NCBI GenBank assembly: GCA_005239175.1
Contig: ML241294.1
Coordinates: 693,275 to 757,274, forward strand
Origin: a halophilic archaeon SHRA6
GTDB lineage: Archaea > Halobacteriota > Halobacteria > Halobacteriales > Haloferacaceae
Length of the DNA stretch: 64,000 nt
Reading direction: 5' to 3'
Positions 2,744 through 26,145 of the stretch are shown in pieces. The notes under the pieces are model-generated. The model was given only the letters and a program-made list of their open reading frames with translations, ran no database searches and was not told the DNA's origin. The position numbers were made by a program, and so were the translations under genes. Numbering within the stretch: position 1 is the first letter of the stretch; every line of letters starts with the position of its first letter.

Positions 2744-3197
2744 TATAGATTGATTATAATTCCCAGTATTAACGATAGGGGGGTAAGCTTAGACGGTACA
2801 AGAAGTAATCTAACCTGCTATTTTATCCGCCCTTCACCGCCAAAATACTCTGTAGAGGCCCTTGTTGAAATTGACACTGTCTATATATGCTAATTCCGCC
2901 GAAGTCAGTCTATTGACCGCGGTCCTGATCAGATTTGGAACGAGATTAGTGTTCTCTCGTCTGAGGTCTGCTCTGTAGGAACTCTGGCAGTCTCAAAAGT
3001 CTAATGCTGCTGAAATCCTCAATAGTTCTGTCTCTGCTGTAATCAGCTGATATGGCTCTACTAGACAGTACCTCTTGCTTCAATTATACGCTTTTTGACC
3101 GGAGACTACCGGAGCTACGGCAAACTGCGTTCAGCACTCTACTGCAGGTCACAGGGCTAAATACTAAGACAGCGTGAGGGTTATATTTGCTAACACG
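2744..3197. other. intergenic gap with IS-end relic
   Basis: No gene is seen. At about 2855-2900 there is a CTTGTTGAAATTGACA block followed by a CTATATATGC block, the inverse orientation of the relic family found at several other places. The rest is AT-rich. The promoters of the TBP gene and of the PLD-helicase gene must lie here, but no confident TATA box can be picked. Confidence 0.4.
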
Positions 3198-6100: not shown

Positions 6101-6998
6101 AGAAGACTCGCTACAGAAGTCACGCGAGATAGAAGATGTAAATGAATTGGATGATACAAGTAAAAATCCACTACTGAGAAATGCGGGGAGTAACGAGAAC
6201 GCAGCATTTGAGCGGTACCTATTGAAACAAGAATTGAATGAGGATTATGGGTTGATAGAAGACGACTTCGAATACGCTGAAGAGTACTTCGATACGCCAC
6301 CAGCAGACAGAGACTTTCTATACACGAACGTCACAGGTCATGAATCTGGCCCACGACCAGGAGTATTCGGACTCGCACATCTCTGGTTTGATAATGACGA
6401 CCACGAATCACCGCTCGGACGTGTTCGCCGAGCATTCTACTACAAACCATTCGCTGACGACGTGAAAGAACGCCCTGTGAGCACACTCAAGATTAACCCA
6501 ACAGTGAAAGGTGAGCCAATCACGGGAAATACAGAAAATGTGCTGGCAAACCGAGACGCAATTCAGGAAGTTCTTGATAAGCGTTTAGAAGCGATTCGGA
6601 GCAGTCAGACAGAGGGAATATTTAAGCAAGGAAATAAATTCTCGAAAGAACAGGAGACAATTTTGGATTATATTGACCACTATTTATTACCAAACTACGG
6701 GGAAACGCCTGTTCCCATAGAAGAGTACGATACACTCGAAGAATGGGCTACTGATCTCCATGAACGACTTCATGACGTGAAATTAGCGAACACCGATGAA
6801 GATCAGATTCTCAGAGATACTTTCCGTCATAACGAGCAGTACGATTCGTTCCCGAACTGGCCCACGATCGAATTCCTCGAAGAGCTTGAGGCATTCTTAG
6901 AGGAAAACGTAGAGGTGTCTACCGAGTATCAAGCGAATCTTGTCGGTGAAAGTGAGGTTCAAACCAGTCTAATGTGCTGGGGCGTGATAGGAACGTAA
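3198..6998 (+). CDS. PLD (HKD)-SNF2-type helicase/nuclease
   Basis: Large (about 1,266 aa) DNA translocase with its own nuclease domain. An N-terminal phospholipase-D-like domain shows YFHAKG (His132, Lys134) and GSSNFT (163-168). The helicase core follows: Walker A VGLGKS (295-300), DEAH (383-386), LTATP (424-428), a coiled insertion, then motifs V/VI with SEGVNLQ and QRVGRIDRIG (888-897). This HKD-plus-Snf2 order is known from defence-type helicases. I choose ATG 3198 (MLSLPPLVDN); a GTG at 3174 is also possible. It ends 24 bases from the end of the convergent methylase gene. Likely role: ATP-driven scanning and cleavage of unmodified DNA, the methylase marking self. The pairing is inferred. 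Confidence 0.85.
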   Translation: MLSLPPLVDNTDRTLEDTYKKIIPQIEEARIATGYFYLSGFDLYREDLQNLADPDELGNAPLRILMGRQTNRGTVDEIEEGQSLRQELKQEVQDSIADLNNAQIGRLDRLRDFIAEGLVSVRVRNPENGYFHAKGASFRAPLEDEDGWVEEGTDTRACATIVGSSNFTASGHRNNIELNLTSQDQHKAEKFESWYDNQWANAEDFSEEIIRIIDNSDRYQDWQEQQEDGPDDDPTTEELGTYIEPFELYKLLAYDELNGNVNIRDSPLYYFQTLGYESAKEKLSQFNGCIISDSVGLGKSFIGGELLHDYRQQGERCLLIVPANLTEQWTDLLQDDTDEDGNPYFGLDVDGTHLDVMSISKFQRLTFDEAQDLRDAFDVVLIDEAHRFRNHGKWRPSPDDDDDYKGTRRHANLRQLRGKTMIMLTATPINNSATDLKHLISLFTSGEEIRNKTSLDFDAFDDYIELSKIRKQIAAGKEEVSDEEQQRITEQLQRHSEEISKILNEVMVLRTRKHVKDQIQDGEDFEMSFKPPILNKQEYSLPPAYQPIYRMLPDVMDALHLPHITVKNPNAGGTLKALYKLNLLKRLESSTFAFVQSIETLHRSERQLLGLLEELPEDQSIDNLRAMQDDEQPETLDDFVQGADAVEDLEQTLEEFGFDTTAVRAEDPDSEKELADATVGEVITYIREDLTLLAYFLSQFIGDVSHDSGTVSDLSVSTRQWLHEHNAGILPDIPEDELNPILYPHSDLRDVDAVTHDYYEAVFSLREFRDPKVDRLADVLNDHDQKVLIFTQYRATADYVYRTLRDNPNSPLTGANSAVIKGGDENKQAIIQRFAPEASGYQQTLAESGESELQYVVATDTLSEGVNLQDVHVVVNYDLPWNPMRIVQRVGRIDRIGSTAEKHVHNFYPDGDIEAAIKLLKRLQAKINDIALIVGKENNILDPNENQLLEKTGVDSEKTIGELQVDEIEDSLQKSREIEDVNELDDTSKNPLLRNAGSNENAAFERYLLKQELNEDYGLIEDDFEYAEEYFDTPPADRDFLYTNVTGHESGPRPGVFGLAHLWFDNDDHESPLGRVRRAFYYKPFADDVKERPVSTLKINPTVKGEPITGNTENVLANRDAIQEVLDKRLEAIRSSQTEGIFKQGNKFSKEQETILDYIDHYLLPNYGETPVPIEEYDTLEEWATDLHERLHDVKLANTDEDQILRDTFRHNEQYDSFPNWPTIEFLEELEAFLEENVEVSTEYQANLVGESEVQTSLMCWGVIGT

Positions 6999-7022
6999 AT
7001 AGATTCCAAGGCGCGGCTACAA

Positions 7023-10000
7023 TTACGGTTTAGGACCTTCCTGTTCAAGAGTATCGTATTTTTCAGAAACCCTCTCGAAATACTCTTCCGACATCACTCG
7101 TGGGTTCTGTACTCTGTGGAAGTCGTTGAGAACGAACTCTACATCCTCACGGTTCAGTCCATACGCGTGAAACGCTGCGGCATCGATCTCTGCCTGAAGT
7201 TCACGACGTTTATCCTTGTTACTCGCAGGATCTATTCCACCGAGACGATCACGCATTTCCTCGAATTCGCTCCCATAGCAATTGAGTCGGGCAGCTCGTG
7301 TCGAGATATACTCAAACCAGTCATCACCATCGGTGAGGTGCGGCACCTGAGATTCTTTGAATTTATACATGACCACTGTCGTGTCAATCTTTGTCCTCAT
7401 TAGGAAATCAAATGGAATGCTATTAAGCAACCCAACGGTTACCAAGAGTTCCCTATCGGAGAATATACGCTCGTATACGTCGTGAAGTGGTTTCTTCGAC
7501 AAATCATCTTTGTCTGGTTCAATAGAGTACGGTCGAATCGTGTGGAGTTTGTTGTGGCATACCACCTCTGGTGGAATGACTGAGGCAATCATCGTTCGCT
7601 CGTTTGTCGAGTTCGTGATATCCCTGTAAACAATCCTGTATTCTGTACAATCTAATAACACGTCTTCCTCTGAGAGTTCTTCACCGCGATGCTGGTTCAG
7701 TGTTTTATTGACAAACTTCTTCTGAGATCCTGAACCGTCAAATGCATTGTAGAGCCCCCGTTTTAATTTTCGATAGTTCTTTTCTCGAATTCGCCGTTTT
7801 GCACTTTTGTCAGGGTCACGGCCTTCATTAACACTCCAAAATTTCGGTGCCTCAATATTGTCCACGTAGTCCGGACTGTAGGTATACTGGTAGACGTTAC
7901 TCCCACCAAGAACGGGATAATCTCCCCTCTCTTCCTCTTCAACGAATCTATCACGGTCATTAGTCCGGTCGAGTTCACGGTAAGGCTGTGCAAACCAACT
8001 ACCGTTATCCTGTTCCGAAATAGGGGGATGGTCAAGGATTTTCTCCAATACTTCGACTTCTTTCTCTTCTTCAAGATACGGGAAAATACGTGCCTCAGGG
8101 GAGTACTCTTCAAGGACCTTGCGAGAGAGATACATTCCATCACTCTCTAGATTTCTCAGGAGGCTCAGGTCACCGTCCCTATACCCACCGTACACCTCAT
8201 CTGTCTCACCCGAACCCTTGAAGACCGGTACACCGAAGACGAACTGGTTATGAACGCCCTCAAAGATACCACGATTCATGAAGATAGGTAACGCCTTCAG
8301 ATTAGTCTCGTTGAGAAGGTGGAGACGCAAGTCCTTGGCCGATGCACCGTTTAACAGCACGCCTGGTAGAACTTGACTGACATAACTTTCATCTCGTGCA
8401 AGTTTGAAAACACGCTCAAAGAATAGAGCAGACAAATCATTTTCAGTTGTTGATTTGGTTCCCCCAACGATAGGACTCTGCAGTTCATAGTCAGGAGAGT
8501 TACTGTAATACTCTGCACGCATTTTCATTTCGTCTTGATACTGCTCCCACCCCGCTGCTATTTTTTCATCTTGGAGAAGTTTCTCCTGCATTTCGTCCTT
8601 ATCGTCTGGCATCCGTGTTCTGAATACTTCATCGTACTTCGAAAAGTAGTCATCTCGAAGAGGCTTGAGTCGATCCCATGGAGGATTCCCGATTAGGACA
8701 TCAAATCCGCCAGTAGAGTATACCTCTGCAAATTCGAGTACCCAATGGAATGGTGAGAACTCTTGGAGTTCTTCCATTTCCATATCATTATATCCCATCC
8801 CGTGAAAACGGTCGAGAATACTTTCATCGAAGTCTTGACTGTACTCCTTTATAAGTTGTTCTGCCTCAGAGCGCTTTACCCTAGCTATATCACTGCTGTT
8901 GGTGCTTTTATGTTGACGGATCGCTTCCAAAACGTCACCAAATTTGCTCTCGACTTTGTTCTCTAAAGCCCCCCACTCAAGTAGAGTATTCTGGCTTGCG
9001 TCCGTCTCGTCGTCATCCATAAACGACACGTACCCTATCAACGAGTTCCCTTGTCGAATATTGAAATCAATATTGGGAAGTGGTTCAACCTCCCTCGGCT
9101 CGTCTTCGATGTCAGCGACCATCGATAACCAAAGACGGAGTTTACAGATCTCAACTGCACCTTCGTCAATATCAACACCGTAGAGGTTGTTCAGAATAAT
9201 TGTACGCTTTGCGTACAGCGACACCCCACCCTGCCCTTCGTTGATCTCTTCTAACTCATCACGAGTTCGAGATTCCATCTCCCAACCTTTGGCCTCTTGT
9301 TCGAGTTGTTCGAAGAACTCGATACATTGTATATAAATATCTACCAATACGTCCTGAGCTGCGAGCAGGAACGCGCCACTCCCAACTGCCGGGTCTAGGA
9401 TGTGTGCCTCTTTTAAGATATCGTGGTACAGCGTTTCGACGTGCTTTGTCTCCACGCTCTCAGTTGGAACCTGTTGAGTCATCGTGCCACCATCTGCTAT
9501 GGCAGGTTCTCCACCGGGTTCCATATTTGAGAACCCGAACACGTCATCTATGTCGTTGTATTCAGCATCCACAGCATCGTTGAGTTGGTCAAGCAGATAG
9601 GGGTGGATAGTACTGCGAGACATGAAGCCAGTGATCTCTTCGGGTGTGTAGTATGCCCCCATCTCTTTCTGGTTAACCGTTTGCTCAAAGATATGTCCAA
9701 GAATAGCTGGGGAGAGATTCTTTGGATCCACGATATCGAGGCGCTCGTCAACATTCCAATTCCAATCAGACAAGAATTCAAGAATATCGTCAAATAATTC
9801 ATTCGTCACCTCAGGGGAGTCACCGAGTTTCGCATCCGGGAATTCCTCTTCTACAGAATTCTTAGCGAATAACCCACCGTTTAAGTATGGCAGACTGCCA
9901 AATTCTGGGCTCTTTTTATTCTCTGCAAGGTAATCAAAAAATAATGGGTCATAGAACTCCTCATATCTATCTCCTCCTTCATCAACGACTTTACTAGGTT

Positions 10001-10634
10001 GTTTGTGTAGGTAATCCGAATTACGATCAAGAAGGCGTTTTTCTTGGATGAAGTACAAGAAAATCATTCGGTCGAGAATAACCTGCACGTAGCGTCGTTT
10101 TGCATCACCCCGGTCGTCCGGAATACCTGAAACCTCCTGTACAAGATCAGTCCGGAGTGATTCGAATCCCTCGTAGAATTCTTTGACAACCTGTTGGGTG
10201 TCGTATAGGGTATCGTAGATAGCCGTCGAAGATCCGTATTCGATTGAATTGAGTTTCTTTAGAACGGTGTTTTTCTCCCCGCTATCTCGGGTGAATTGTT
10301 CTTTCGAGAATGAGATCTTCTGGTGTTTAATCCGCCCGTGCTGCTGACCTTCCCAGCTCCGCATTCGTGTTAGAAATGTGAATTCTTCAAAATCATTTGT
10401 AGCGACGAGATTCGTGTGCCGCGATCGATTTGCTGGTTTGAAGTCTGTCGCGGATTCGCCAGGGCCAGCCTTAACAAGAACAACAAATTCGTCATCGGCG
10501 AGTTGGAGGACAAGTTCATTCTCTTCGCCGAGATTCGGGCGGGGTTTCAACCCGCGTTTCTTGAATGAATCTGCGACATCTTCGAGTGAATCCCACTCTG
10601 CAATGTCGCTTGCAGTGATTTGTTGTTGAGTCAT
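7023..10634 (-). CDS. Eco57I-type adenine-specific methylase with specificity region
   Basis: A 1,203-residue enzyme of the PglX/type IIG size class. Residues 1-330 form an acidic N-terminal region ending in the conserved AYYTPEEIT block. Motif I is ILDPAVGSGAF (Asp414 onward), followed by LYGVDIDEGAVEICKLRLWL. Motif IV is GNPPW (650-653), typical of N6-adenine methylases. The C-terminal 450 residues resemble a target-recognition region, with PYLEEEKEVEVLEKI and paired helices at the end. No PD-(D/E)XK triad is obvious in the first 100 residues, so cleavage may come from the neighbouring PLD-helicase. No PglZ, BrxC or DrmB gene lies nearby, so it is not complete BREX or DISARM. Confidence 0.88.
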   Translation of the reverse strand: MTQQQITASDIAEWDSLEDVADSFKKRGLKPRPNLGEENELVLQLADDEFVVLVKAGPGESATDFKPANRSRHTNLVATNDFEEFTFLTRMRSWEGQQHGRIKHQKISFSKEQFTRDSGEKNTVLKKLNSIEYGSSTAIYDTLYDTQQVVKEFYEGFESLRTDLVQEVSGIPDDRGDAKRRYVQVILDRMIFLYFIQEKRLLDRNSDYLHKQPSKVVDEGGDRYEEFYDPLFFDYLAENKKSPEFGSLPYLNGGLFAKNSVEEEFPDAKLGDSPEVTNELFDDILEFLSDWNWNVDERLDIVDPKNLSPAILGHIFEQTVNQKEMGAYYTPEEITGFMSRSTIHPYLLDQLNDAVDAEYNDIDDVFGFSNMEPGGEPAIADGGTMTQQVPTESVETKHVETLYHDILKEAHILDPAVGSGAFLLAAQDVLVDIYIQCIEFFEQLEQEAKGWEMESRTRDELEEINEGQGGVSLYAKRTIILNNLYGVDIDEGAVEICKLRLWLSMVADIEDEPREVEPLPNIDFNIRQGNSLIGYVSFMDDDETDASQNTLLEWGALENKVESKFGDVLEAIRQHKSTNSSDIARVKRSEAEQLIKEYSQDFDESILDRFHGMGYNDMEMEELQEFSPFHWVLEFAEVYSTGGFDVLIGNPPWDRLKPLRDDYFSKYDEVFRTRMPDDKDEMQEKLLQDEKIAAGWEQYQDEMKMRAEYYSNSPDYELQSPIVGGTKSTTENDLSALFFERVFKLARDESYVSQVLPGVLLNGASAKDLRLHLLNETNLKALPIFMNRGIFEGVHNQFVFGVPVFKGSGETDEVYGGYRDGDLSLLRNLESDGMYLSRKVLEEYSPEARIFPYLEEEKEVEVLEKILDHPPISEQDNGSWFAQPYRELDRTNDRDRFVEEEERGDYPVLGGSNVYQYTYSPDYVDNIEAPKFWSVNEGRDPDKSAKRRIREKNYRKLKRGLYNAFDGSGSQKKFVNKTLNQHRGEELSEEDVLLDCTEYRIVYRDITNSTNERTMIASVIPPEVVCHNKLHTIRPYSIEPDKDDLSKKPLHDVYERIFSDRELLVTVGLLNSIPFDFLMRTKIDTTVVMYKFKESQVPHLTDGDDWFEYISTRAARLNCYGSEFEEMRDRLGGIDPASNKDKRRELQAEIDAAAFHAYGLNREDVEFVLNDFHRVQNPRVMSEEYFERVSEKYDTLEQEGPKP

Positions 10635-12190: not shown

Positions 12191-12213
12191 TTCCAAATCT
12201 GGTGCAAGAACCC

Positions 12214-12837
12214 ATGAAAAATTCAAATACAAAAGCACAAGAAGGCATCGACAAATTATTCATTGAAGATATAAACCAGTTGGAACATATCGCTATCGGG
12301 GAAGGGGCCGAGACCTGTCATGTATGTGACGAACCTGTGCAGGAAGGAGATTCGGTTGCAGTATACGTTAGTCGCGTGATTTCGACGATTCCGTATACTG
12401 TCGGTCCAATTTTTTGTCAAGAACACAAGACTACTGCTGAGATGACGTGCTTCCGCGATCGGCGCGAGCTGATCGTAGGTGGGCGCGTTGGGACGGTGAG
12501 TGACGCGGCGATGCAGTCCACGTATTCCGTACTGCTGGCTCCGGAGGTGGAGCTGGTGAGCCCGATCGGCTCACGTGAGGCATACACACAGGGGGAATAC
12601 GCAGCGCTGCGGGCGCAGTCACTGCGTGCTGACGGAAGTCATCAGATGAGCGTTAGCGGGATCGACGAGCAAGCGCACGAGACACAGACAGCGCACCCCG
12701 ATTCAAGGGGTATGCATTGCGAGATACCTAGTCCGGCGATCGAGCAGGGGATGGCATCAAATACCGACCCAGCCGTCGAACAGACCGTACCTGACGGAAA
12801 TGACGGAGATGACGTGATAGGGGGTGATGCAGCGTGA
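12214..12837 (+). CDS. zinc-binding protein, first gene of RAMP operon (Csf1-like?)
   Basis: About 207 residues. The N-terminal half has a CHVCDEPVQEGD knuckle followed some 30 residues later by a FCQEH pair, giving a CxxC...CxxH zinc site. The second half is low-complexity and rich in Gly, Asp and Ser. Type IV Csf1 proteins are of similar size and also carry a zinc finger, so it could be the small or large-subunit equivalent here, but sequence similarity is not evident to me. I use ATG 12214; a GTG at 12202 is in frame. It overlaps the next gene by four bases (GTGA), which indicates a translationally coupled operon. Confidence 0.6.
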   Translation: MKNSNTKAQEGIDKLFIEDINQLEHIAIGEGAETCHVCDEPVQEGDSVAVYVSRVISTIPYTVGPIFCQEHKTTAEMTCFRDRRELIVGGRVGTVSDAAMQSTYSVLLAPEVELVSPIGSREAYTQGEYAALRAQSLRADGSHQMSVSGIDEQAHETQTAHPDSRGMHCEIPSPAIEQGMASNTDPAVEQTVPDGNDGDDVIGGDAA

Positions 12838-13853
12838 GACCAGCCGACGCGGACGGCTTCGAGACGGCACACTTGGATGGTGAATACGACCTGCCGGCGC
12901 TGTCGGAATCGACATTTCCCAAGGTCTACATCGGGATGGATGCGGACTTGCTTGCGCCTGGCGACGGGATCGTGACGGATCGCCATCATGCGTCGGCGGA
13001 TCGCTACGAGGCGGATGATCCGATGAATCAGATTGGCGGGCAGATATCGTCGTTTGCGCTGTCGGGATGGCTGCGCCACGCGTGTGAGCGCGTACTACAG
13101 ATGGGCGGTTCGACGGCCTGTCACCCTGGTGAGCCAAACGCGGATTACAAGCGCGCGAACGTGTACGAACGCGACCTCGACGCGGGCTATCACGAGAAAG
13201 GATCCTGCGTTGATGAGGGCGATAGCGACACGGGCTGTGTGGTGTACGAGCTGTTTGGTGGCTTTGGGTCGAAGCCAGGCGAGTTGATCCGGCATCCGGT
13301 GTCGTTCTCGCCGGTGCGCCGGCAGGTGGACGTGCTGCGTGGCGAGGCAGAAGCGCATTTCCGCCAGTTGCACACGCAGGTGCGATCGCGGAATGAGGCC
13401 GATGGGGGGCAGCCGTTGCGGCATGCGACGCGTGATGTCGTCGGGAACCTCGAAGGAACGTGGTTGCTCCAATTGCGATCTTTGCGCCCAGAATTTGTTG
13501 GCTTGCTGATCGAGGCGGTGTCGTTTTTGGACGCCTACAACTCTAAGTACGAGTTTCAGCTTGGCGGCGCACGGAATTTCGGCGCGGGTATCGTGGATGT
13601 CGGGCTGGTAAATCCGCTGTACACCGATCGAGAGATTCGCCGAGTGTACAATCGCGCGCAGAAGCCGACAACGGCGATGAGGACAAAAGACACAAAATGG
13701 CGAGATGTGTACCGCAAAGAGTTCGTGCGGGCCTTACAAGAATCGCTGAGCGACGAGGATGGCGAGCTGCCGCCAGCGATCGACGGTGCCAGTGCTCGTG
13801 GAAATGACAGTGACTCGCGTGCCGCTGACGATACGCAGGGTGATGGCCAATGA
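12834..13853 (+). CDS. Cas7-like RAMP protein (Csf2/Csm3-type)
   Basis: A 339-residue protein with features of Cas7-type RAMPs. ISSFALSGWLRHACERVL corresponds to the PGSSLRGALR helix. CVVYELFGGFGSKPGELIRHPVSFSPV matches the CxxCxLFG...R..V/F.D region that follows. EFQLGGARNFGAGIVDVGLVNP is a typical glycine-rich RAMP loop. Such subunits form the crRNA-binding backbone in type III and IV effectors. It starts with GTG at 12834, overlapping the upstream stop, and ends in the ATGA overlap with the next gene. No Cas10, Cas1/2 or repeat array is nearby. The assignment to the RAMP superfamily is fairly secure; the exact type is not. Confidence 0.72.
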   Translation: MRPADADGFETAHLDGEYDLPALSESTFPKVYIGMDADLLAPGDGIVTDRHHASADRYEADDPMNQIGGQISSFALSGWLRHACERVLQMGGSTACHPGEPNADYKRANVYERDLDAGYHEKGSCVDEGDSDTGCVVYELFGGFGSKPGELIRHPVSFSPVRRQVDVLRGEAEAHFRQLHTQVRSRNEADGGQPLRHATRDVVGNLEGTWLLQLRSLRPEFVGLLIEAVSFLDAYNSKYEFQLGGARNFGAGIVDVGLVNPLYTDREIRRVYNRAQKPTTAMRTKDTKWRDVYRKEFVRALQESLSDEDGELPPAIDGASARGNDSDSRAADDTQGDGQ

Positions 13854-15040
13854 GTGGTGACGGGGAGGGGGGCCTCCCGAGTGAGATTGGCGAGGAAAAT
13901 GAAGATTTCCCGAGCAAGATTACGAAGGGAGAGGGGGGTGCCCCGAGTGAGATTGGCGAGGAAAATGAAGAGTTCCCGAGCAAGATTGGGAAGGGAGAGA
14001 GGGGTGCCCCGAGTGAGCCTGGCGAGGAAAATGAAGATCTCCCGAGCAAGATTGCGAAGAGAGAGGGGGGCCTCCCGAGTGAGACTGGTGAGAGTGGCGA
14101 TGGGGAGGGGGGTCTCCCGAGTGAGGAAATTGGCGGAACCGAGGCAGATCCATTGGTCGCGGTGTACCGCCACGACGTGCACAAGTTGCGTGGTCGGGAA
14201 CACACAGCCGCACACGACGAGTGGTATGGCGTTCGCGTCAACGAGGATGTCCCGCTGGGTGCAGATCGGGATGCAGCGGTATTGAGTCGGCCACGGGGCG
14301 AGCCCGAGCAGACGGTGTCGAATCATGCGTCGCCGTTCCGATTATCCCTCGTCACCGGTGAAGCGATGGCCGAGTCTGATCGGATCTTGGCAGCGACGGA
14401 CGGTGGATTCCGAGAGCTGATTCAATCTGACGATCCGGCAGAGTTGCATGCAGCGTGGCTCACGAGCGACGTCGCGGCGGCGTTCAACGAGTCGATATTC
14501 TACCCATATTCCTCGCTAAAATACCACGTGTTGCTGGCGGGTGCCTTGTTGTCGGCATACCGCGACGGCTACGCGTTCGAGGATCTGTATGTGGCGGTGA
14601 CGCCCGGTGAGGCGGCTGCTGAGACGAGGACAGCAGCAGCGGCGAGGGCGAGCGAGGCGGTGACGTCGTTTGAGACGGTATTGTGGTCGCCGACGTTGAC
14701 GATCGATTTGACGGCAGCCCCCGGCGATCGACCAGCAGCGTCACTGGGCCCGGCTCCGGCGCGATCGTTTGCGGACGTGTGGTCGCGGCTCCCAGCCCAT
14801 CCGTTTCAGGTGGACGACGCACGCCTGCGGATGGTCGTGGATGCACAGCTTCGGCGGATTCGATCGTGGTCGGTGGCCTTGCAGTTCATCGAAGAAGTGT
14901 CGGGAGATGGCATGCGCCGATCGCTGGCTGGCGAGGGCCAGCATGTCCTTATGGCTCCCAAGAATTCTGGCAGTGGCGGAGAGACGGATCCAACATCGCA
15001 GTCACGTCGTTCGAGTGGATCTGATGGGGGTGATCGATGA
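13850..15040 (+). CDS. unknown operon protein with N-terminal 22-residue repeats
   Basis: A 396-residue protein in the middle of the RAMP operon. Residues 5-93 are more than three tandem units of 22 residues (consensus EGGLPSEIGEENEDFPSK plus four), acidic and probably disordered. From about 100 onward there is a globular part that I do not recognise: AVYRHDVHKLRGREH, a long alanine-rich helix region (220-255), and a DDARLRMVVDAQLRRIRSWSVALQFIEE helix near the end. Its position between Cas7-like and Cas5/6-like genes suggests an effector subunit, perhaps the large or helical (Cas8/Cas11-like) one. It could also be an accessory protein. Four-base ATGA overlaps join it to both neighbours. Confidence 0.6.
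   Translation: MSGDGEGGLPSEIGEENEDFPSKITKGEGGAPSEIGEENEEFPSKIGKGERGAPSEPGEENEDLPSKIAKREGGLPSETGESGDGEGGLPSEEIGGTEADPLVAVYRHDVHKLRGREHTAAHDEWYGVRVNEDVPLGADRDAAVLSRPRGEPEQTVSNHASPFRLSLVTGEAMAESDRILAATDGGFRELIQSDDPAELHAAWLTSDVAAAFNESIFYPYSSLKYHVLLAGALLSAYRDGYAFEDLYVAVTPGEAAAETRTAAAARASEAVTSFETVLWSPTLTIDLTAAPGDRPAASLGPAPARSFADVWSRLPAHPFQVDDARLRMVVDAQLRRIRSWSVALQFIEEVSGDGMRRSLAGEGQHVLMAPKNSGSGGETDPTSQSRRSSGSDGGDR
13862..14130 (+). repeat. in-frame 66-bp tandem repeat
   Basis: CCCCGAGTGAG-like landmarks recur exactly 66 bases apart (near 13879, 13945, 14011 and 14077), and a shortened unit follows. Each unit codes for 22 residues. Differences between units are few, so the expansion is recent or kept uniform. 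Confidence 0.85.
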
Positions 15041-16017
15041 GCCGGATCCAACAGGTTCTGTTCCAATTGGACGCCGAGTACTATGGCCATCCGTACTACG
15101 TGACCGGGAATGCGCTGTACAATGCGATCGCTCAGCGAGTTGAGTCGGCGACACGACGAGCGATGTGCGTGAGCCACGGTGTCTTCTTGCCGGGCGAGTA
15201 CGGCTCGTATCCGGCGTGGCACTCACAGAGCGGGTCGCTCGGCAAGATCGGATCGGAATTACCGCCGGTCGAGTCCTACGAGGACTTGTTTCTGTTACGG
15301 GACGCCGCACACCGGTGGTTGAAATCGTCACGGCCGCGTGATGTGCACAATGCCCATCCGATGCAGACCCACGGCGGTCGAGTGACGTTTGCGCCTGTGA
15401 CCTGGTTTGGCCGACCGCCCGAGTTCGCTACTTCAAAACGTGGTGTGCGGTGGTACGTCCACTGTTATTTGCATGCTGGCTCGGCCGTTGATGATGGGAT
15501 CCTGCCGGTGCCGGCAGAGGTCCTCGATGGATTGCAGGTTGGCGGCGGACGCAACTACGGATTTGGCGCACTGTCGCACGTAGACTCACAGCTGATCGAT
15601 ACCGACGAGTTGTCGTTCGATCGAGTGGCCGCGGCTGATGAGCACGTCATAGAGCTCATCTCGCCGTTTGTGACTGCGAGTTCCTATCCTGGTGCTGATG
15701 ACCAGTCAGTGCCGTGGTGGTGGGACGTGGCTCGCTCAGACGCACCTAATGGCCGCGTGAGCGACTCGACGACTGAGCCGACACGAGATGCGAGCGATGG
15801 GCTGCGCCGGCGCGCAGAGCGGCTGGCTGCCGATGGATCAGTGTATGAGATCGAGACGATCGATCACGGCCAACGCGTCGGCTATGCGGGCGATGCGCCA
15901 ATTGAGACAGCGAAGAATGGCGTGCTGCGGATCGGGACGCATGCACGATATGGCTTCGGTGAGCTTTGGCTCCGGCCGGCGAGCGATGATCGTGTTTCTG
16001 ATCGAGGTGATCACTGA
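15037..16017 (+). CDS. RAMP protein with two glycine-rich loops (Cas5/Csf3- or Cas6-like)
   Basis: A 326-residue protein closing the operon. It opens with a beta strand and helix of ferredoxin-fold type (QQVLFQLDAEYY then TGNALYNAIAQRV). The central LQVGGGRNYGFGALSHV and C-terminal GTHARYGFGELWL are G-rich loops characteristic of Cas5/Cas6-family RAMPs. A His-containing GVFLPGEYGSYPAWHS stretch precedes the first loop, but I cannot identify a catalytic triad, so crRNA processing is uncertain. It could be the Csf3/Cas5-equivalent that caps the 5' end of a guide. ATG at 15037 overlaps the stop of the repeat-bearing gene. A 110-base gap separates it from the HNH gene downstream. Confidence 0.68.
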   Translation: MSRIQQVLFQLDAEYYGHPYYVTGNALYNAIAQRVESATRRAMCVSHGVFLPGEYGSYPAWHSQSGSLGKIGSELPPVESYEDLFLLRDAAHRWLKSSRPRDVHNAHPMQTHGGRVTFAPVTWFGRPPEFATSKRGVRWYVHCYLHAGSAVDDGILPVPAEVLDGLQVGGGRNYGFGALSHVDSQLIDTDELSFDRVAAADEHVIELISPFVTASSYPGADDQSVPWWWDVARSDAPNGRVSDSTTEPTRDASDGLRRRAERLAADGSVYEIETIDHGQRVGYAGDAPIETAKNGVLRIGTHARYGFGELWLRPASDDRVSDRGDH

Positions 16018-16128
16018 GGCAGGTAGCTCGACGGCACTGAGACGATCCACCCGGGAATTCAATTGAAGCGATACACCACAGGATAGCTACCCGGCGACGC
16101 GATTACCAACGACTACGATAGACCGATC

Positions 16129-17193
16129 ATGGCTACAAACAATACCGCCGATCAGACCCGCGACGAGTTGCACCGAAAACAGACCGAAGCTACCGATAGT
16201 GCTGAATCCGAAACCTCGGACCCAGACAATTGCCATAGCACCGTGAGCCAACAGCGCCAATCTGAGGTGTTAGACCGCGACGGCCATCAATGTCGGATTT
16301 GCGGCCGGCTTGGGCCCGAGCGTGGCGGACTCGCTTCGCTGCACATCCACCACATCGAACGAAACCCAGACAACATCGACGAAGACGATCCACAAAATCT
16401 GACGACGCTGTGTCGATCCTGCCATAATTGGATCCATCTGCGATCGACGCCGGCCGACTCGCCCACACCGCTGACCGACACAGACTTGAATGTGCTGCTG
16501 CCCCAGGATATCGAGATCCTGCAGTATCTAGCAGATCAAGGGCCGGCGCGTACGGGCGATATTGTATCCGCGCTAAATATCGATTTGTCCGTCGCAGCCG
16601 TCCGCGAACGGCTGTGGACACTGATGGGCTTGGATAATATCGTCGAATCGCGTGATCAACAGATCGTGGATAAGGACATCGAAACGGGTGAGTGGGGGCT
16701 CTCTGAGCAGATCGAAACTTCAGCTCGGGGGCACGTCCCCGATGACCCGCGGCTATTGATACAGCGATTTGAGGATGAACAGGTGCGACAGGCCGTAAAT
16801 CGCGGTATTAGCCGTGATGCGATCATGGATGTCTTAGACGTATCGCGCCGAACAACGTTCAACAAGGAGAAGCGCGCCTGTGCCTTCGGATTCCCGCTCA
16901 GCGTGTTTTTGCATGGCAATCGAGAGTCGGCAGATCGAGACGTCAGCCGCGACGACAGTAGTGGTGAGCCTGAGCCTGAGTCGGCTGACGGCGACCAACA
17001 GCGGACACTCGCTGAAACGCTCAACGACGATCTCGAACCAATCGAGACCTGGGGCGTAGTTGATGGGCTCAGCACCGCTGAGACAGACTCGATGGCTGCT
17101 GATGAAGATCAGCGAGAAGCCGATCGAACAGCACTGCGCGAGAAGCTCCACGCCGCGATTGACGCACTCGAAGCCGCAGACACTGCGCTGTGA
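16129..17193 (+). CDS. HNH endonuclease with winged-helix domain
   Basis: A 354-residue protein. Residues 40-105 are a complete HNH module: RDGHQCRICG, LHIHHIERNPDN (the His-His pair) and NLTTLCRSCHNWIH, with four zinc-binding cysteines. A winged-helix-like block follows at about 118-165 (ILQYLADQGPARTGDIVSAL). A further helical DNA-binding segment (GISRDAIMDVLDVSRRTTFNKEKR, about 224-250) resembles a recombinase-type HTH. The tail is acidic. Such HNH-HTH proteins occur on haloarchaeal plasmids and proviruses. It follows the RAMP operon on the same strand and has similarly high GC compared with the AT-richer flanks, suggesting a shared origin; whether it acts with the RAMP proteins is unknown. 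Confidence 0.82.
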   Translation: MATNNTADQTRDELHRKQTEATDSAESETSDPDNCHSTVSQQRQSEVLDRDGHQCRICGRLGPERGGLASLHIHHIERNPDNIDEDDPQNLTTLCRSCHNWIHLRSTPADSPTPLTDTDLNVLLPQDIEILQYLADQGPARTGDIVSALNIDLSVAAVRERLWTLMGLDNIVESRDQQIVDKDIETGEWGLSEQIETSARGHVPDDPRLLIQRFEDEQVRQAVNRGISRDAIMDVLDVSRRTTFNKEKRACAFGFPLSVFLHGNRESADRDVSRDDSSGEPEPESADGDQQRTLAETLNDDLEPIETWGVVDGLSTAETDSMAADEDQREADRTALREKLHAAIDALEAADTAL

Positions 17194-20112: not shown

Positions 20113-20239
20113 CTGGTTTATTTTGCAACTTTTCTCTGGGGCGGCCAAGCTCTCGGGCGTACTGATACGCACCCGACAGCCTAAGCAGATAAGAATAGCA
20201 TCCCGAAGAGTGATATATTCACGCCCCATAGTTGACTCG

Positions 20240-20770
20240 ATGCCAGAATCTCCCCCGGCGTTTAAGGATGTGAACGAACGCGCCAAAGAGGAGTGGAAAC
20301 GAGATACCACCCCCTTCGACCGTGTGCGGTCAGTGATGCGCACGGCGTACGAGCCCATGAGCGCCGCTACCGTCGCCGAGAACGCCCTCACGTCGGAGCA
20401 GACAGCCCGCAAGCACCTTCGCTCGCTGGTTGAACACGGCTACGTGGCAGAGACCGCGTCACCAGATTCAACAGGCACGCTCTATCGGCGGGCCAAGGAC
20501 TCGATCGCGCTCGAACAAGCTCGGCGGATCCTCGACGAGACAGACACCGATACACTCTCGACGCGCGTGCTGCAGATGCGCGAGGAGCTCCGAGCGTACG
20601 CCGACCGATTCGGCGCGAACTCGCCCGAGGAAGCGGTCCGGTCCCATACAGGGATTGACTCAGAGACGCTCTTAGAGTGGCGAACGACGCGGCGGAACCT
20701 CTCATTCGCTGAGGTGGCGCTCGCGCTCAGCGCGGTCGAAAACCCCACTGGTGGGGCAGAATCAGTCTGA
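20240..20770 (+). CDS. winged-helix regulator, first gene of a two-gene operon
   Basis: A 176-residue protein. Residues 28-80 form a winged helix: VMRTAYEPMSAATVAENALTSEQTARKHLRSLVEHGYV and a short wing ending LYRRAK. The following 60 residues are a long helix (QARRILDETDTDTLSTRVLQMREELRAYADRFG) and a TLLEWRTTRRNLSFAEVALALSAV dimer-like tail. This is a common haloarchaeal HTH type (DUF7342-like, from memory). I choose ATG 20240; the 39 upstream residues are basic and unlike the rest. Its stop overlaps the start of the next gene by one base. The arrangement resembles toxin-antitoxin pairs in which the HTH member is the antitoxin, but this is not shown. Confidence 0.78.
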   Translation: MPESPPAFKDVNERAKEEWKRDTTPFDRVRSVMRTAYEPMSAATVAENALTSEQTARKHLRSLVEHGYVAETASPDSTGTLYRRAKDSIALEQARRILDETDTDTLSTRVLQMREELRAYADRFGANSPEEAVRSHTGIDSETLLEWRTTRRNLSFAEVALALSAVENPTGGAESV

Positions 20771-21246
20771 TGCAATTCGACAGTGGAGACGACGAATCTC
20801 ACGCGCTTCGGGGCACTATCGACGTGACGAAACTCGATGCGTTTCGAGATGCGTTCACCGCTATCGAGCCGATGGCCTCAGGCGCAATCGATGACCGACT
20901 CAACCCCCGAGAACTCCGGCTCACGATACCGTATGGCGTTGGGGAAGCAGAGAAAACCCTATTCACGGTTCGTTGGACGACGGTGGACGACTATAATATA
21001 CATTATTCGGATACGTCCGGGCGCAACTGCCGATGGGATATCCACCCGCACGACTTTTCAGCACCGCCCGACGAGCGGCACTTCCACCCGCCACCAGACG
21101 CGTCAAGCGCAGATACCCACGTAGAAGCGTCGTGTCTCAGGGAACCCTCAATTGAGATCGTTGCCCGGGGAATTCACCTCTTATGGCGACAGGCATTGGA
21201 CGAGGGGTCGATGGCAAATATCAACGTCGGAACGAACCTCCCCTGA
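20770..21246 (+). CDS. partner of the wHTH gene, possible toxin-like protein
   Basis: A 158-residue protein translationally coupled to the preceding HTH gene (TGATG). The centre reads FTVRWTTVDDYNIHYSDTSGRNCRWDIHPHDFSAPPDERHFHPPPDA, with several aromatic and His residues on strands. This pattern resembles TumE/DUF6516-type proteins that pair with HTH antitoxins. Downstream is a helix ending HLLWRQAL. Haloarchaea carry many such HTH-plus-partner pairs. Assignment as a toxin is a guess from context and His-rich motif; it might equally be a structural partner of the regulator. Confidence 0.6.
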   Translation: MQFDSGDDESHALRGTIDVTKLDAFRDAFTAIEPMASGAIDDRLNPRELRLTIPYGVGEAEKTLFTVRWTTVDDYNIHYSDTSGRNCRWDIHPHDFSAPPDERHFHPPPDASSADTHVEASCLREPSIEIVARGIHLLWRQALDEGSMANINVGTNLP

Positions 21247-21566
21247 CCGCAATCAGCACTCAGTGATTTGACCCTCATTCATGACTTTCTCATTAGCATC
21301 GAGATCCACGTTACGAAAAACAGCTCACGGATTGTCACGACTTTTGTTCTGGTACGCCTGATACGTGCCGGTTGTGAGTGATATCGTCATGCTGCCAAGC
21401 TACGAATCCTACTCTGAGTCTGTGTTGCACGTTTCGGTCCCTCTCGCTTTCGCTGATATCGTATAGTGAAAAAGTTGGCAGTTCCCTAACCGTGTTTCTG
21501 GCTGGGTGTTTGCTCGCTCGTCATTTGTTCCACCCTGTGGTGAACGATTATTAGCTCAACACAACA
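21247..21566. other. intergenic gap, no gene seen
   Basis: A 320-base gap with no open frame of note. It must contain the promoter of the PLD-ATPase gene, but I cannot pick a convincing TATA box within 40 bases of the ATG at 21567. Confidence 0.4.
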
Positions 21567-23867
21567 ATGTCAAATACTCACATGCCAGAGCAGGTTGATC
21601 TCCCAATAGGTGGTGAGCCAGAAACAACAGGACATATTGAACTCTTCAGGAGCTATAATCGGTTCGAGACATATTTTGAGGGCGCTACCCGGATGCGTGT
21701 CGTGACGTACTGTGATTCTCCGGAATTTATTCTTGAACTGTTCGATCGGGTGGAGTCGCTTGAACGGTTGGAAGTGGTCGTGGGGGACGTTGCGGATTAT
21801 CGAGAGCGACTGATCGATAAGCCGGAACTTGCAGATCGTCTTGAACGGCTCAAGCGTAACGGTGAGTTGGTGATCTATCTTTGTGAAACGAAGGAAGTAC
21901 ACAGTAAACTCTACTTGATTGAGTATAGCGAAGAGCAGCCCAATTCGGCAGAAAGTGACGAGACGGATGCTTCACAGCAAACCTTCGAATGGGCCGACTC
22001 AGAGTCAGCTACAGGTGGTGATGAGACGGATATTGACGAGTCTGAGGCTGCTGCAGAAACAAAAGAAGCCCGTCCGGCGACGGCGATCGTTGGCTCTCCA
22101 AACCTGTCGAAAAATGCGTGGACACGACAGGCGAATACTGGTGTTGTATTTGAAACAACGACAAAAACACCGTTGTGGGATGCAGTCGTAGACTTCTACG
22201 AGGAGCATCGATCCTACAACAACGAAGGCCCGTTTCTCGATGATCTTACTGAGCGATTGGAACGAACTGCTGATGATCGGGCGGAGGTAGTCTCGCTGTA
22301 TACTGAGGGAAAAGTCAAGACCCGAGATGAGGTGAGCGAACTTCACGGTCGGCTCGATGAGCGAATTGAATCAGAGGTGGACGAAGTTGATCTAGTACTT
22401 GGCGATGAGACGGATTTGAGCGAAGGTGCTGAAGCGGAAATCGACAACCAAGACAAACCAGAAGACGAAGCGAGTGAGTCGTCGGCTGACGCGTTAGACC
22501 CGAGTGAGGAAAATACAACCCGGATCAACCTCTCGCTGTTGGGACACAGCGATGATGCGATCGAAGCATTGTCCCGAATGACGAATTACGACGCGTCCCT
22601 ATCTGGTGATTCGTTAACTACGACGCCACAAGCGGTCCAACAGTACAAGCGCGATGTGTATGAGGTACCGACGATGCGTGTCCGGCGGACGCAGTTGAGC
22701 GACGATGGGGCCGTGGAATTTGGACAGAGACTGAGTTTCCATTCTGATGGACGCGTCTATCGGGTTGGCAATCCGATTCCGAACGATCCGCGTGTTGTTG
22801 CTACTGCGTTATCCGATTTAGAGCAGTATTTTGAGACGGTAGATAAGTACGGAAACTGCAATGATGCGAATGCGGTGAAAGCGCACATGGCAGAGGCGTT
22901 ACTGTGGATGTTCTGGGCACCGTTTGTGAACCGCGATGCAACGTTCTATGACCAGTATGGAATTGATCTTGATAAGGCGCTTCCGAATCTCTATATTTAC
23001 GGAGAGTCCGATGCTGGGAAAGGAACGTTCGCGCAGTTTGCTCTGTCAATGATCAGTGGTGGACGAGTGTTGAATCCGGTTGATGCGGATGAAGTCGGTA
23101 AGCGAAAGATTCGTGGAATGCGCTCTGCGAATACTGCGTTCCCTGTCGTTGTCGATGACATCACGAAAACGACCGTGAATCGGTTAGATACATTCCGGAA
23201 TTATTGGGGCAATTGGACGCCAGACGCAAGTTACCCGTTGTTTGCGTTCATTAGCAATGACAAGCGACCTGACGAGTGGTTTCGGAACCGATCGAAGATC
23301 CTGCATTTCAACGTGAATTTCGATACGAGCTACAAGGGCGAAGCCGAAGTGAATCGCCTGATTGAGCAGGACAATCCGGTGTTTCTCTGGTTCACTCACA
23401 AAATGCTGACGCGTGAGCTAACACTCTCGAACGATGATGATGCGCTACGAACAGCTCGAACAGTGATGTTAGAACTGTACGACTATGCTGACCGTGATGT
23501 ACCAGCGTGGTTCCCGCGTCGGCCAGCCGAGCGTGAGCACGATGCGGGTCGTGATCGGTGGTTTGACCTGCTCAAACGAGAGGATGTTGCAACAGAAGAT
23601 CAGGGCGAACGGCTACGTGTGTCATTCCCCGAAGAGATGTCTACAGACACCTACACGTACGCCCGTGATCCGCCTACGGTTGCACGCGTTGAGCGACGTG
23701 GTCGAGATCTGTTGATCAAATCCCCAGATGAGTTCTTAGACTGGCTAGGAGAGGTGCCTACTGGCGTTGAATTAGATAGACGAATTAGTAGCGACCCCAC
23801 CACAGAAACGAATGAAACAGCACCTGATGACGGCATACTCAACAAAGTCCGTGGATTATTCAATTGA
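21567..23867 (+). CDS. PLD nuclease fused to P-loop (SF3-like) ATPase
   Basis: A 766-residue fusion. The N-terminal PLD-like domain has VHSKLYLIEY (about 111-120) with the HxK pair and, after an acidic low-complexity insert, IVGSPNLSKNAW (about 174-185) as the second half. An acidic linker follows (270-315). The C-terminal domain is an ATPase: LPNLYIYGESDAGKGTF (Walker A), AFPVVVDDITK (Walker B) and FAFISNDKRPDEWF (sensor-like), resembling SF3/D5-type helicases. The order nuclease, linker, NTPase suggests an ATP-gated DNA-targeting enzyme. It is a single gene with no close partner. A decayed copy of its last 40 codons lies near 30.9 kb. Family name unknown to me. Confidence 0.75.
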   Translation: MSNTHMPEQVDLPIGGEPETTGHIELFRSYNRFETYFEGATRMRVVTYCDSPEFILELFDRVESLERLEVVVGDVADYRERLIDKPELADRLERLKRNGELVIYLCETKEVHSKLYLIEYSEEQPNSAESDETDASQQTFEWADSESATGGDETDIDESEAAAETKEARPATAIVGSPNLSKNAWTRQANTGVVFETTTKTPLWDAVVDFYEEHRSYNNEGPFLDDLTERLERTADDRAEVVSLYTEGKVKTRDEVSELHGRLDERIESEVDEVDLVLGDETDLSEGAEAEIDNQDKPEDEASESSADALDPSEENTTRINLSLLGHSDDAIEALSRMTNYDASLSGDSLTTTPQAVQQYKRDVYEVPTMRVRRTQLSDDGAVEFGQRLSFHSDGRVYRVGNPIPNDPRVVATALSDLEQYFETVDKYGNCNDANAVKAHMAEALLWMFWAPFVNRDATFYDQYGIDLDKALPNLYIYGESDAGKGTFAQFALSMISGGRVLNPVDADEVGKRKIRGMRSANTAFPVVVDDITKTTVNRLDTFRNYWGNWTPDASYPLFAFISNDKRPDEWFRNRSKILHFNVNFDTSYKGEAEVNRLIEQDNPVFLWFTHKMLTRELTLSNDDDALRTARTVMLELYDYADRDVPAWFPRRPAEREHDAGRDRWFDLLKREDVATEDQGERLRVSFPEEMSTDTYTYARDPPTVARVERRGRDLLIKSPDEFLDWLGEVPTGVELDRRISSDPTTETNETAPDDGILNKVRGLFN

Positions 23868-24261: not shown

Positions 24262-24501
24262 GGGTAAGGGGAGGAACTTAGAGCGTGTGACAATGCCCAA
24301 GTTCCAATTACAATTTTGTGTTCTGTTTATAAATACCTGTGCCGACCACAGTGAAAATGAAAACGAAAGGTATGCTGCCCTATAGGTGTACTAATCGGCG
24401 ATCCTAACTGCGTGTATCTCTCCCAAATTTAGCTACGCGATCGCCTGTAGGTACGCGCCACTCATCCTCACGGCTATGTGCCTGATTGTTGCTAGTTGGA
24501 T

Positions 24502-24579
24502 ACGATATGGTCGTGCTGTGAGTCCGGCTGCCCGGCCGTGAGTTTACTATCGGCCCTTCTCAGCGCACTCCTTCGCCGA
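24502..24579 (+). repeat. direct repeat flanking a nuclease cassette, left copy
   Basis: An 80-base block containing ATATGGTCGTGCTGTGAGTC and, further on, CTATCGGCCCTTCTCAGCGC. It matches the block at 26067-26145 with roughly three-quarters identity by eye. The two enclose the PD-(D/E)XK gene. The 24262-24726 gap has no gene. Confidence 0.6.
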
Positions 24580-24726: not shown

Positions 24727-25857
24727 GTGAACGGTTGTATGCGTATCTTCCAATCTAGTTCCATAAAAAAATCCCCGACAGCGATGCCAGCAAAAGAGCG
24801 ACCGATTTTACCTGCTGGTGATGAAGGAGGAGAGGGTGATGGCAAACTAGAAGAATGGCTTAATGCGTCGCCAGATACCATTCTCGATGAGCGATTATTA
24901 CTCTTCGCTCGGCAACCTAGTCTCCCGACCGGCGAAGCTGATTTGATCGGTCTCGATCGGTTCGGTAATTGTGTTGTGGTCGAAATTAAGATGGGTACCT
25001 CCGGATCTAAGTCCGCCTCCGAGGCGAGTATTGTTAGCCAACCTCAATTGTACGCACAGGCCCTCGACAGATTCAGTTACCATGATCTAGACGCACTCCG
25101 TGAGGAATACGTCGCCAAAGGTTGCGTAGTCCCATCAGAAGTCGCGCAACAAGACTCGCTAATTGGAGCTTTCAATTCGTTTTTCGACAAGGACCGAGAC
25201 CCTTGGGAACTCAATCAGGGACAGCGGATGGTCATCGTCGCAGAGCGCATTACGCCCCAGACTCGTCAGTCTACACGATGGCTTCGAGACCAGGGGCTTG
25301 ACATCCAAGCTGTAGAACTCCAACGGTTCGACCTTCCATCTGGTGAGACTTGTTTTGGAGCCGTGACCATCGTTGATTACGACGAAACCCGTTCACGACA
25401 ACCTACGCAGTCGAAGCCTGGTGATCGGGTTTTCACAATCGGGGTATTCACCAAGGCATTCCCCCATCTGCAAGATATTTTAAGCACTGATCATATGGAC
25501 TCCGTTCTCGGAAATCTCACGACTAACTACCCGTATCTCGAATCGAGAGCGCCTGGTCATCCAAATGCTGTCAGATACGCGTTACGGGTAAATCCCTACG
25601 GGGACAACGAAGTGAAGGTTGCAATCGATGCGTCGGGTGATGGGAGTTCATCTGCGGTGAAAACCATTCAGAAGCACCGCAATCGATTTGAGGAGCGGAA
25701 TTTCTTAGTTAGCGAGCGAGAATCGTTGCGAATTGTGGTGGACACATGGGAGAATATCGAGATCGCTGATCTTCGACGAGATGCATTTATTGAGCGGGTC
25801 GCGGCTCGATACATCGAGTTAGTCGAACTATCTCATACGATATTTGATTCAACCTGA
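24727..25857 (+). CDS. NucS/RecB-like PD-(D/E)XK nuclease-type protein
   Basis: A 376-residue protein with a classic nuclease core near the N-terminus: LEEWLNASPDTILDERLLLF, then TGEADLIGLDRFGNCVVVEIKMG with the Asp and the E-I-K of PD-(D/E)XK, and a following QPQLYAQAL helix with the conserved Gln. This is the layout of NucS/DUF91-type enzymes that act on single-stranded or branched DNA. A VIVAERITPQTRQSTRWLRDQGLDIQAVEL segment completes the fold. The C-terminal 150 residues are unassigned. Start ATG 24727 is used; ATG 24784 would remove 19 residues outside the core. It sits as a single gene between two direct repeats, as expected of a transferable cassette. Confidence 0.75.
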   Translation: MNGCMRIFQSSSIKKSPTAMPAKERPILPAGDEGGEGDGKLEEWLNASPDTILDERLLLFARQPSLPTGEADLIGLDRFGNCVVVEIKMGTSGSKSASEASIVSQPQLYAQALDRFSYHDLDALREEYVAKGCVVPSEVAQQDSLIGAFNSFFDKDRDPWELNQGQRMVIVAERITPQTRQSTRWLRDQGLDIQAVELQRFDLPSGETCFGAVTIVDYDETRSRQPTQSKPGDRVFTIGVFTKAFPHLQDILSTDHMDSVLGNLTTNYPYLESRAPGHPNAVRYALRVNPYGDNEVKVAIDASGDGSSSAVKTIQKHRNRFEERNFLVSERESLRIVVDTWENIEIADLRRDAFIERVAARYIELVELSHTIFDST

Positions 25858-26066
25858 AGAGACCTCTCCTTCGGAATTCCCGAATTCGAAGTGTTCACGC
25901 CAAAACAGATGGGGCGAACACGAGACCACGAGCGCCATTATTTATTGTGCTGTTTCTTTGCTTCGTCGAAGAAATCTCAACTACAACCGTAGAGACAACC
26001 CAAGAAGTACCGTGATCATAGCGAGACAACTCTTTCAGAGTATTCACCTGCCGGCTGCCGGTTAGA

Positions 26067-26145
26067 CGTAATATGGTCATGCTGTGAGTCTGGCCCCCCG
26101 GCCGGGGGCCTCCTATCGGCCCTTCTCAGCGCATTCACTCGCCGA
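26067..26145 (+). repeat. direct repeat flanking a nuclease cassette, right copy
   Basis: Block with ATATGGTCATGCTGTGAGTC and CTATCGGCCCTTCTCAGCGC, matching 24502-24579. In this copy the middle has become a GC-rich hairpin. It lies just beyond the 3' end of the DUF3006 gene. Confidence 0.6.
26092..26110 (-). terminator. GC-rich hairpin after the DUF3006 gene
   Basis: GGCCCCC (26092-26098) pairs with GGGGGCC (26104-26110). It is placed 50 bases beyond the stop codon of the minus-strand operon, so it may help end transcription. No clear T-run follows, so this is tentative. Confidence 0.35.

Follow-up and report, generated by a model that had tools for sequence, protein, structure and literature searches.

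The ATPases of SauUSI and CglI/NgoAVII belong to SF2. Both systems are precedents for motor-driven phospholipase D (PLD) nucleases, with helicase-like ATPases of other superfamilies than the one considered here (PMC7913695, PMC4267653, PMC5737866). SauUSI carries its PLD nuclease and its SF2-type motor in one chain together with a modification-reading domain, and shreds foreign DNA (PMC7913695). In CglI/NgoAVII, the PLD domain resides in the R subunit, a DEAD-family ATPase forms a subunit of its own, and cutting is site-specific (PMC4267653, PMC5737866). PLD proteins were also listed by an earlier survey among the nucleases of pAgo operons (PMC6299218). AgaP is the Argonaute-associated PLD protein of the APAP (long-A pAgo + PLD) system of Natrinema pellirubrum. 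With its pAgo, N. pellirubrum AgaP (NpAgaP) restricts plasmids and an ssDNA virus; alone it is toxic, and this toxicity is neutralised by pAgo. Plasmid restriction goes through the PLD site, whose residues are needed for activity, and the HxK motif of this site was described as a "unique split" (PMC11442185). How the system distinguishes foreign DNA from the chromosome was left open in the same study, which proposed that pAgo might be assisted by separate helicases (PMC11442185).

We analysed a 64,000-nt stretch of a haloarchaeal genome (hereafter the window). It contains a complete ORF of 766 aa (21567..23867; this and all features below are on the + strand), an orphan AgaP-family gene predicted to encode a PLD nuclease followed by an SF3-like ATPase, in single copy in the source genome. 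A tblastn search of plasmids returned homologues on many haloarchaeal plasmids, annotated as tyrosyl-DNA phosphodiesterase or PLD-like. One of them, from N. pellirubrum DSM 15624, was the closest characterised homologue, with 52.6% identity over 99% of the query. This protein (L046) has H105, K107, E112, G119, S120, D122, G157, S158, and N160, all in exact agreement with the residue numbers given for the published AgaP (PMC11442185). The first-pass annotation knew no named defence family with this domain order, a statement that did not hold, as the window protein is an AgaP-family member ~53% identical to NpAgaP over its whole length. The two share domain order, catalytic residues, haloarchaeal range, and type of C-terminal tail. 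They differ in that the window gene has no pAgo, and in the length of an insertion in the PLD site (61 versus 49 residues). Judged by its sequence, the window protein is therefore a member of the AgaP family but not of an APAP system, because no pAgo was found adjacent to the gene or in the genome, and its regulation must differ from that of APAP. No family was assigned to the whole protein by Pfam, PADLOC, PHROGs, or NCBIfam, and an Rfam search gave no matches. The ORF is not a chance one, since 80 of 344 Halobacteria genomes encode homologues and pairwise dN/dS among full-length orphan relatives is ~0.06–0.11.

The N-terminal half (residues 20–235, 21624..22271) is predicted to be a PLD nuclease domain with a single HKD motif. 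PF09565/PF13091 matches were weak and stayed below the Pfam threshold (RE_NgoFVII, 8e-5; PLDc_2, 0.0017), and Foldseek pointed to the NgoAVII R protein (4rct), which is also the closest solved sequence homologue of this half, and, by fold, to Nuc (1byr). The catalytic HxK half-site is H112-S-K114 (21900..21908), aligned with H105/K107 of NpAgaP, for which mutational data exist (PMC11442185). The GSPN half-site, G176-S-P-N179 (22092..22103), corresponds to G157/S158/N160. H112 and K114 were invariant in 43 of 43 homologues, and the S and N of GSPN in all 42 rows with letters at these positions. Between the half-sites lies an acidic insertion predicted to be disordered (residues ~121–170, 21927..22076). 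The HxK–GSxN spacing was 61 residues in the window clade, 44–49 in the N. pellirubrum group, 74 in Halosimplex, and 15 in most of the family. As 15 is the usual spacing, what was published as a split motif is an ordinary one that carries an acidic insertion in one subclade, a reading of the alignment that is new here.

The C-terminal half carries a complete set of SF3 motifs: Walker A GESDAGKG with K485 (residues 479–486, 23001..23024), Walker B VVVDD with D531 (527–531, 23145..23159), which forms a strand in the model, motif C/sensor 1 SNDKRP with N564 (563–568, 23253..23270), and a downstream arginine, R575 (23289..23291), a candidate arginine finger by analogy with SF3 helicases. In the family alignment, G479, G484, K485, D531, N564, P568, and R575 were invariant in 43/43, and Walker B position D530 was D in 24/43. 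Yet this half had no match at all in Pfam, including SF3, D5, and DUF927. Structural modelling was more informative. A full-length AlphaFold2 model built on the family alignment reached a mean pLDDT of 78.5, with the acidic stretches 124–166 and 281–316 (the latter a linker, 22407..22514) predicted to be disordered (pLDDT <50) and residues 739–766 of low confidence. A second model, of residues 318–738 only, reached a pLDDT of 87.2. From these models and the fold comparison, the putative SF3-like ATPase domain was placed at residues ~400–727 (22764..23747). Foldseek against the PDB with the full model put SCCmec Cch (DUF927) on top, then SV40/JCV large T antigen; the 318–738 model again gave Cch and T antigen, with NrS-1, and further down SaPI5 primase-helicase, B19 NS1, AAV Rep40, and D5. 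SF3 proteins thus head the list (E 2.6e-6 to 1e-3), but their TM-scores on the ATPase part were only 0.24–0.38. Since these are below 0.4, kinship with SF3 helicases is remote, and it is by inference that we speak below of ring formation and helicase action. On motifs and fold comparison, the nearest description of this half would be an SF3-like ATPase of remote kinship.

These data bore out most of what the first-pass annotation had read from the sequence, namely HxK and GSPN half-sites, an acidic linker (two disordered stretches in the model), Walker A, Walker B, and a sensor Asn, in the order PLD nuclease then SF3-like ATPase. Of the domains that it named for a search, PLDc_2 did appear in Pfam, though below threshold, while DUF927/D5/SF3 emerged from fold comparison only. 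SauUSI likewise joins a PLD nuclease and a motor, but the motor of the window protein is SF3-like, and no target-reading domain was recognised in it. Cch and other SF3 helicases are the closest in fold to the C-terminal half; unlike the window protein, they have no PLD nuclease, stand among replication neighbours, and have a replicative role. "ATPase", "Walker", and "AAA" have 0 occurrences in the main text of the AgaP paper (PMC11442185), so that the motor half appears undescribed there.

We then considered how the family is distributed. pAgo, counted by match to PDLC02388, was present in 46 of the 344 Halobacteria genomes, and 33 of these 46 also had an AgaP homologue (Fisher P=3e-14); genomes with at least two NurA genes were enriched as well (31/54, P=2e-9), both P values overstating the evidence because close relatives are not independent. 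AgaP homologues and pAgo were less than 1 kb apart in 21 pairs and 1.6–30 kb apart in 8 more. At 8–30 kb on the same contig (G003, G065, G052, G151, G095, G225, G127), the pAgos were, except in G127, more divergent, with bit scores of ~350–410 versus ~1000; such distant pairs perhaps form a larger, looser Argonaute island. Phages and viral contigs held no relatives of the PLD-ATPase, and a draw of 394 genomes from the phylum gave one weak PLD-only match outside the order and none else.

Inspection of 70 loci showed three partly overlapping sets of neighbours: pAgo within six genes in 21, an AddAB-like set (UvrD-like, PD-(D/E)XK, and UvrD+PD-(D/E)XK proteins) in 16, and a Mre11-Rad50-NurA-HerA set in 17; 31 loci had none of the three. 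In L052, L060, and L061, pAgo, PLD-ATPase, and a resection set stand side by side. Most Rad50-like neighbours had a CPxC zinc hook and a Walker A motif. That AgaP relatives lie beside AddAB-like or Mre11-Rad50-NurA-HerA operons is a new observation. Adjacency is no proof of joint action, but the pairing is recurrent and the two operon types are interchangeable, which suggests a second role for these repair machines, as the degrading arm in defence by Argonaute. Incidentally, we noticed that accessory Mre11-Rad50-NurA-HerA operons adjoin AgaP homologues in L052, L061, L060, L070, L065, L099, and L103, and that some such operons carry an extra protein of ~220 aa. According to a review, H. volcanii lacks HerA and NurA; contrary to this, PF09376 matched 337/344 Halobacteria genomes and the H. 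volcanii control.

In the family tree, the window protein and L031–L036 formed a seven-row clade (support 100), sister to pAgo-linked Halosimplex proteins and then to N. pellirubrum-type AgaP (SH-aLRT 100). The search for pAgo was negative in the window genome and in the other genomes of this seven-genome clade, one of which is a MAG. The simplest reading is that pAgo was lost. Both active sites were nevertheless invariant in the orphans, and the low dN/dS was obtained at dS values of 0.3–1.7. With purifying selection and intact motifs in the absence of pAgo, the window gene appears to be a maintained orphan, which is also new here. Orphans differed from pAgo-linked members at 14 scattered positions, most of which fall in the PLD half and outline no clear lost interface. 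Upstream of the gene, 16–46 nt before the ATG, lies an imperfect dyad (TCATTTGTTCCACCCTGTGGTGAACGATTAT, 21521..21551; 0 chance matches expected in the window), matched at the same position in L031–L034 and L036. From its position and conservation, this promoter-proximal stretch might be an operator. Only this short dyad is kept upstream of the gene, and no small conserved antitoxin ORF was seen there.

At the other end, the protein closes with a conserved tail, GILNKVRGLFN (23832..23864; family consensus G-F/V-L-S-R-L/V). An acidic linker followed by a terminal G-[FV]-[LF]-S-R-[LV], or by a sequence close to it, was present in 68/70 members versus 2/586 other ORFs, and this is likewise a new observation. 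The tail resembles the C-terminus of E. coli MinD (EEEKKGFLKRLFGG), whose helix attaches to membranes once ATP-dependent dimerisation has placed two copies side by side (PMC8155659). The hydrophobic moment of the AgaP tail was not exceptional (shuffle p ~0.17–0.20; median at the 76th percentile of other C-termini), but this comparison lacks power, since E. coli MinD itself scored no higher (0.48). A membrane role is hence suggested by the likeness of the motif. The tail may serve to anchor assembled rings at the membrane, at the entry point of foreign DNA, or else to dock a partner.

The most probable reading, in our view, is that of an ATP-driven PLD nuclease of the AgaP family encoded by an orphan defence gene. 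The SF3-like ATPase would assemble into a probably hexameric ring able to load onto DNA and move along it. The PLD domains, with one HKD motif each, would dimerise for metal-independent cleavage of the engaged DNA. The resulting ATP-gated nuclease would destroy incoming or extrachromosomal DNA. In pAgo-linked relatives, guided pAgo would both license and restrain the nuclease, and AddAB-like or Mre11-Rad50-NurA-HerA neighbours would degrade the ends that it makes. With pAgo lost in the orphan clade, restraint and trigger must come from the protein, its expression, or another partner. Candidates would be the state of the ATPase with the acidic loops, tight expression through the conserved dyad, or some other partner. 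The stand-alone setting noted by the first-pass annotation agrees with the lack of pAgo beside the gene, and the gene might be a single-protein defence system, although NpAgaP acts together with its pAgo and is toxic on its own. A bolder version seems rather unlikely to us. It holds that this is a pAgo-free, self-contained, guide-free enzyme, an SF3-type ring with PLD domains, which the MinD-like tail would tether to the membrane when ATP-bound on DNA, and which would destroy DNA as it enters. If true, membrane-tethered cutting at the entry point would also account for the sparing of the chromosome by APAP systems. Two features absent from the AgaP main text, a helicase-type ATPase and a membrane-helix-like tail, bear on the discrimination of foreign DNA and on the help expected from helicases. 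Moreover, a maintained clade without pAgo is a natural test of the PLD-ATPase acting alone and of why it is not lethal.

A different possibility was that the protein replicates or maintains an integrative element, as a self-loading SF3/DUF927-like helicase whose PLD half nicks the origin. As a matter of fact, its best fold match, Cch, is a DUF927 helicase of a mobile element (PMC7581432), and a tyrosine recombinase directly follows the gene in L031–L034 and L036. A common block of ~16 kb, ~99% identical, is shared by L031, L032, L033, and L036, from four genera, which together with the recombinase indicates recent mobility. In a sister species of the same genus, a copy reduced to the C-terminal part, from residue ~456, abuts tRNA-Glu. 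However, no recombinase adjoins the window copy, the family has no match in phages or viral contigs, and an immune role has been demonstrated for NpAgaP, a close relative (PMC11442185). The survey of genomic context also went against replication: the annotated clusters of the 70 loci contained pAgo, resection machinery, and defence genes, with no recurrent primase, polymerase, or SSB. We consider this explanation quite unlikely. A known replication protein with conserved replication neighbours, the identity against which the first-pass annotation had weighed its own, was not what we found: the fold is helicase-like, but the neighbours are those of pAgo, resection, and defence.

The truncated copy in the same genus, and a second one in another genome that keeps only the N-terminal part, show that the gene is dispensable. 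This could mean that the orphan is a silent, toxin-like remnant without present function, heading for loss, all the more so as toxicity of AgaP without pAgo is known from the published system (PMC11442185). It is very unlikely, however, given the dN/dS values, the retention of all catalytic residues, and the conservation of the dyad. Finally, that a pAgo-independent partner nearby, such as the RAMP-protein operon 4–9 kb upstream, replaces pAgo as guide-bearing or recognition part is highly improbable and was not adopted, for although the window, L031–L033, and L036 have RAMP-like (15037–16017) and HNH homologues upstream of the gene, and L034 has an HNH homologue there, with different intervening genes between loci, the operon is several kb away and occurs in 95/344 genomes, mostly with no PLD-ATPase nearby, so that shared residence in a defence island suffices.

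The window neighbourhood is defence-rich. It holds two gene pairs, PLD-Snf2 helicase with type IIG methyltransferase and DUF7342 with TumE-like, as well as the HNH-containing RAMP operon, within an AT-richer island (GC 0.42–0.57 over most of the window versus ~0.61–0.62 at its right end). The first of these pairs (3174–10634) consists of a PLD (HKD) + Snf2 helicase protein of 1274 aa, convergent with a type IIG-like methyltransferase of 1203 aa.

The RAMP-containing operon (12202–17193) is conserved in haloarchaea (L135, L136, L120, and L121). Its content is BrxL (PF13337, 1e-140), a ~190 aa protein, a weakly Csm3-like RAMP, a ~290 aa protein, a Cmr3-like RAMP, an RNase_H_2-like protein, and an HNH protein; the window copy is devoid of BrxL and of the RNase H-like gene. 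Homologues of the Cmr3-like gene were present in 95/344 Halobacteria genomes. No CRISPR array was found near the window copy, a Cas10-like GGDD protein was absent with most copies, and among the papers searched none joined BrxL, RAMP, and haloarchaea. The BrxL-RAMP operon is possibly an undescribed defence system.

Directly upstream of the PLD-ATPase gene (20123–21246), a DUF7342 winged-helix protein precedes a weakly TumE-like protein, a possible toxin-antitoxin pair; a TumE-like homologue lies downstream of the gene in L031–L034 and L036. On the other side, a 99-nt direct repeat (24481–24579 and 26047–26145, 77% identical) flanks a nuclease-like gene (24727–25857). Similar short stretches were seen in L034 and L039, and the repeat is possibly a MITE-like element.
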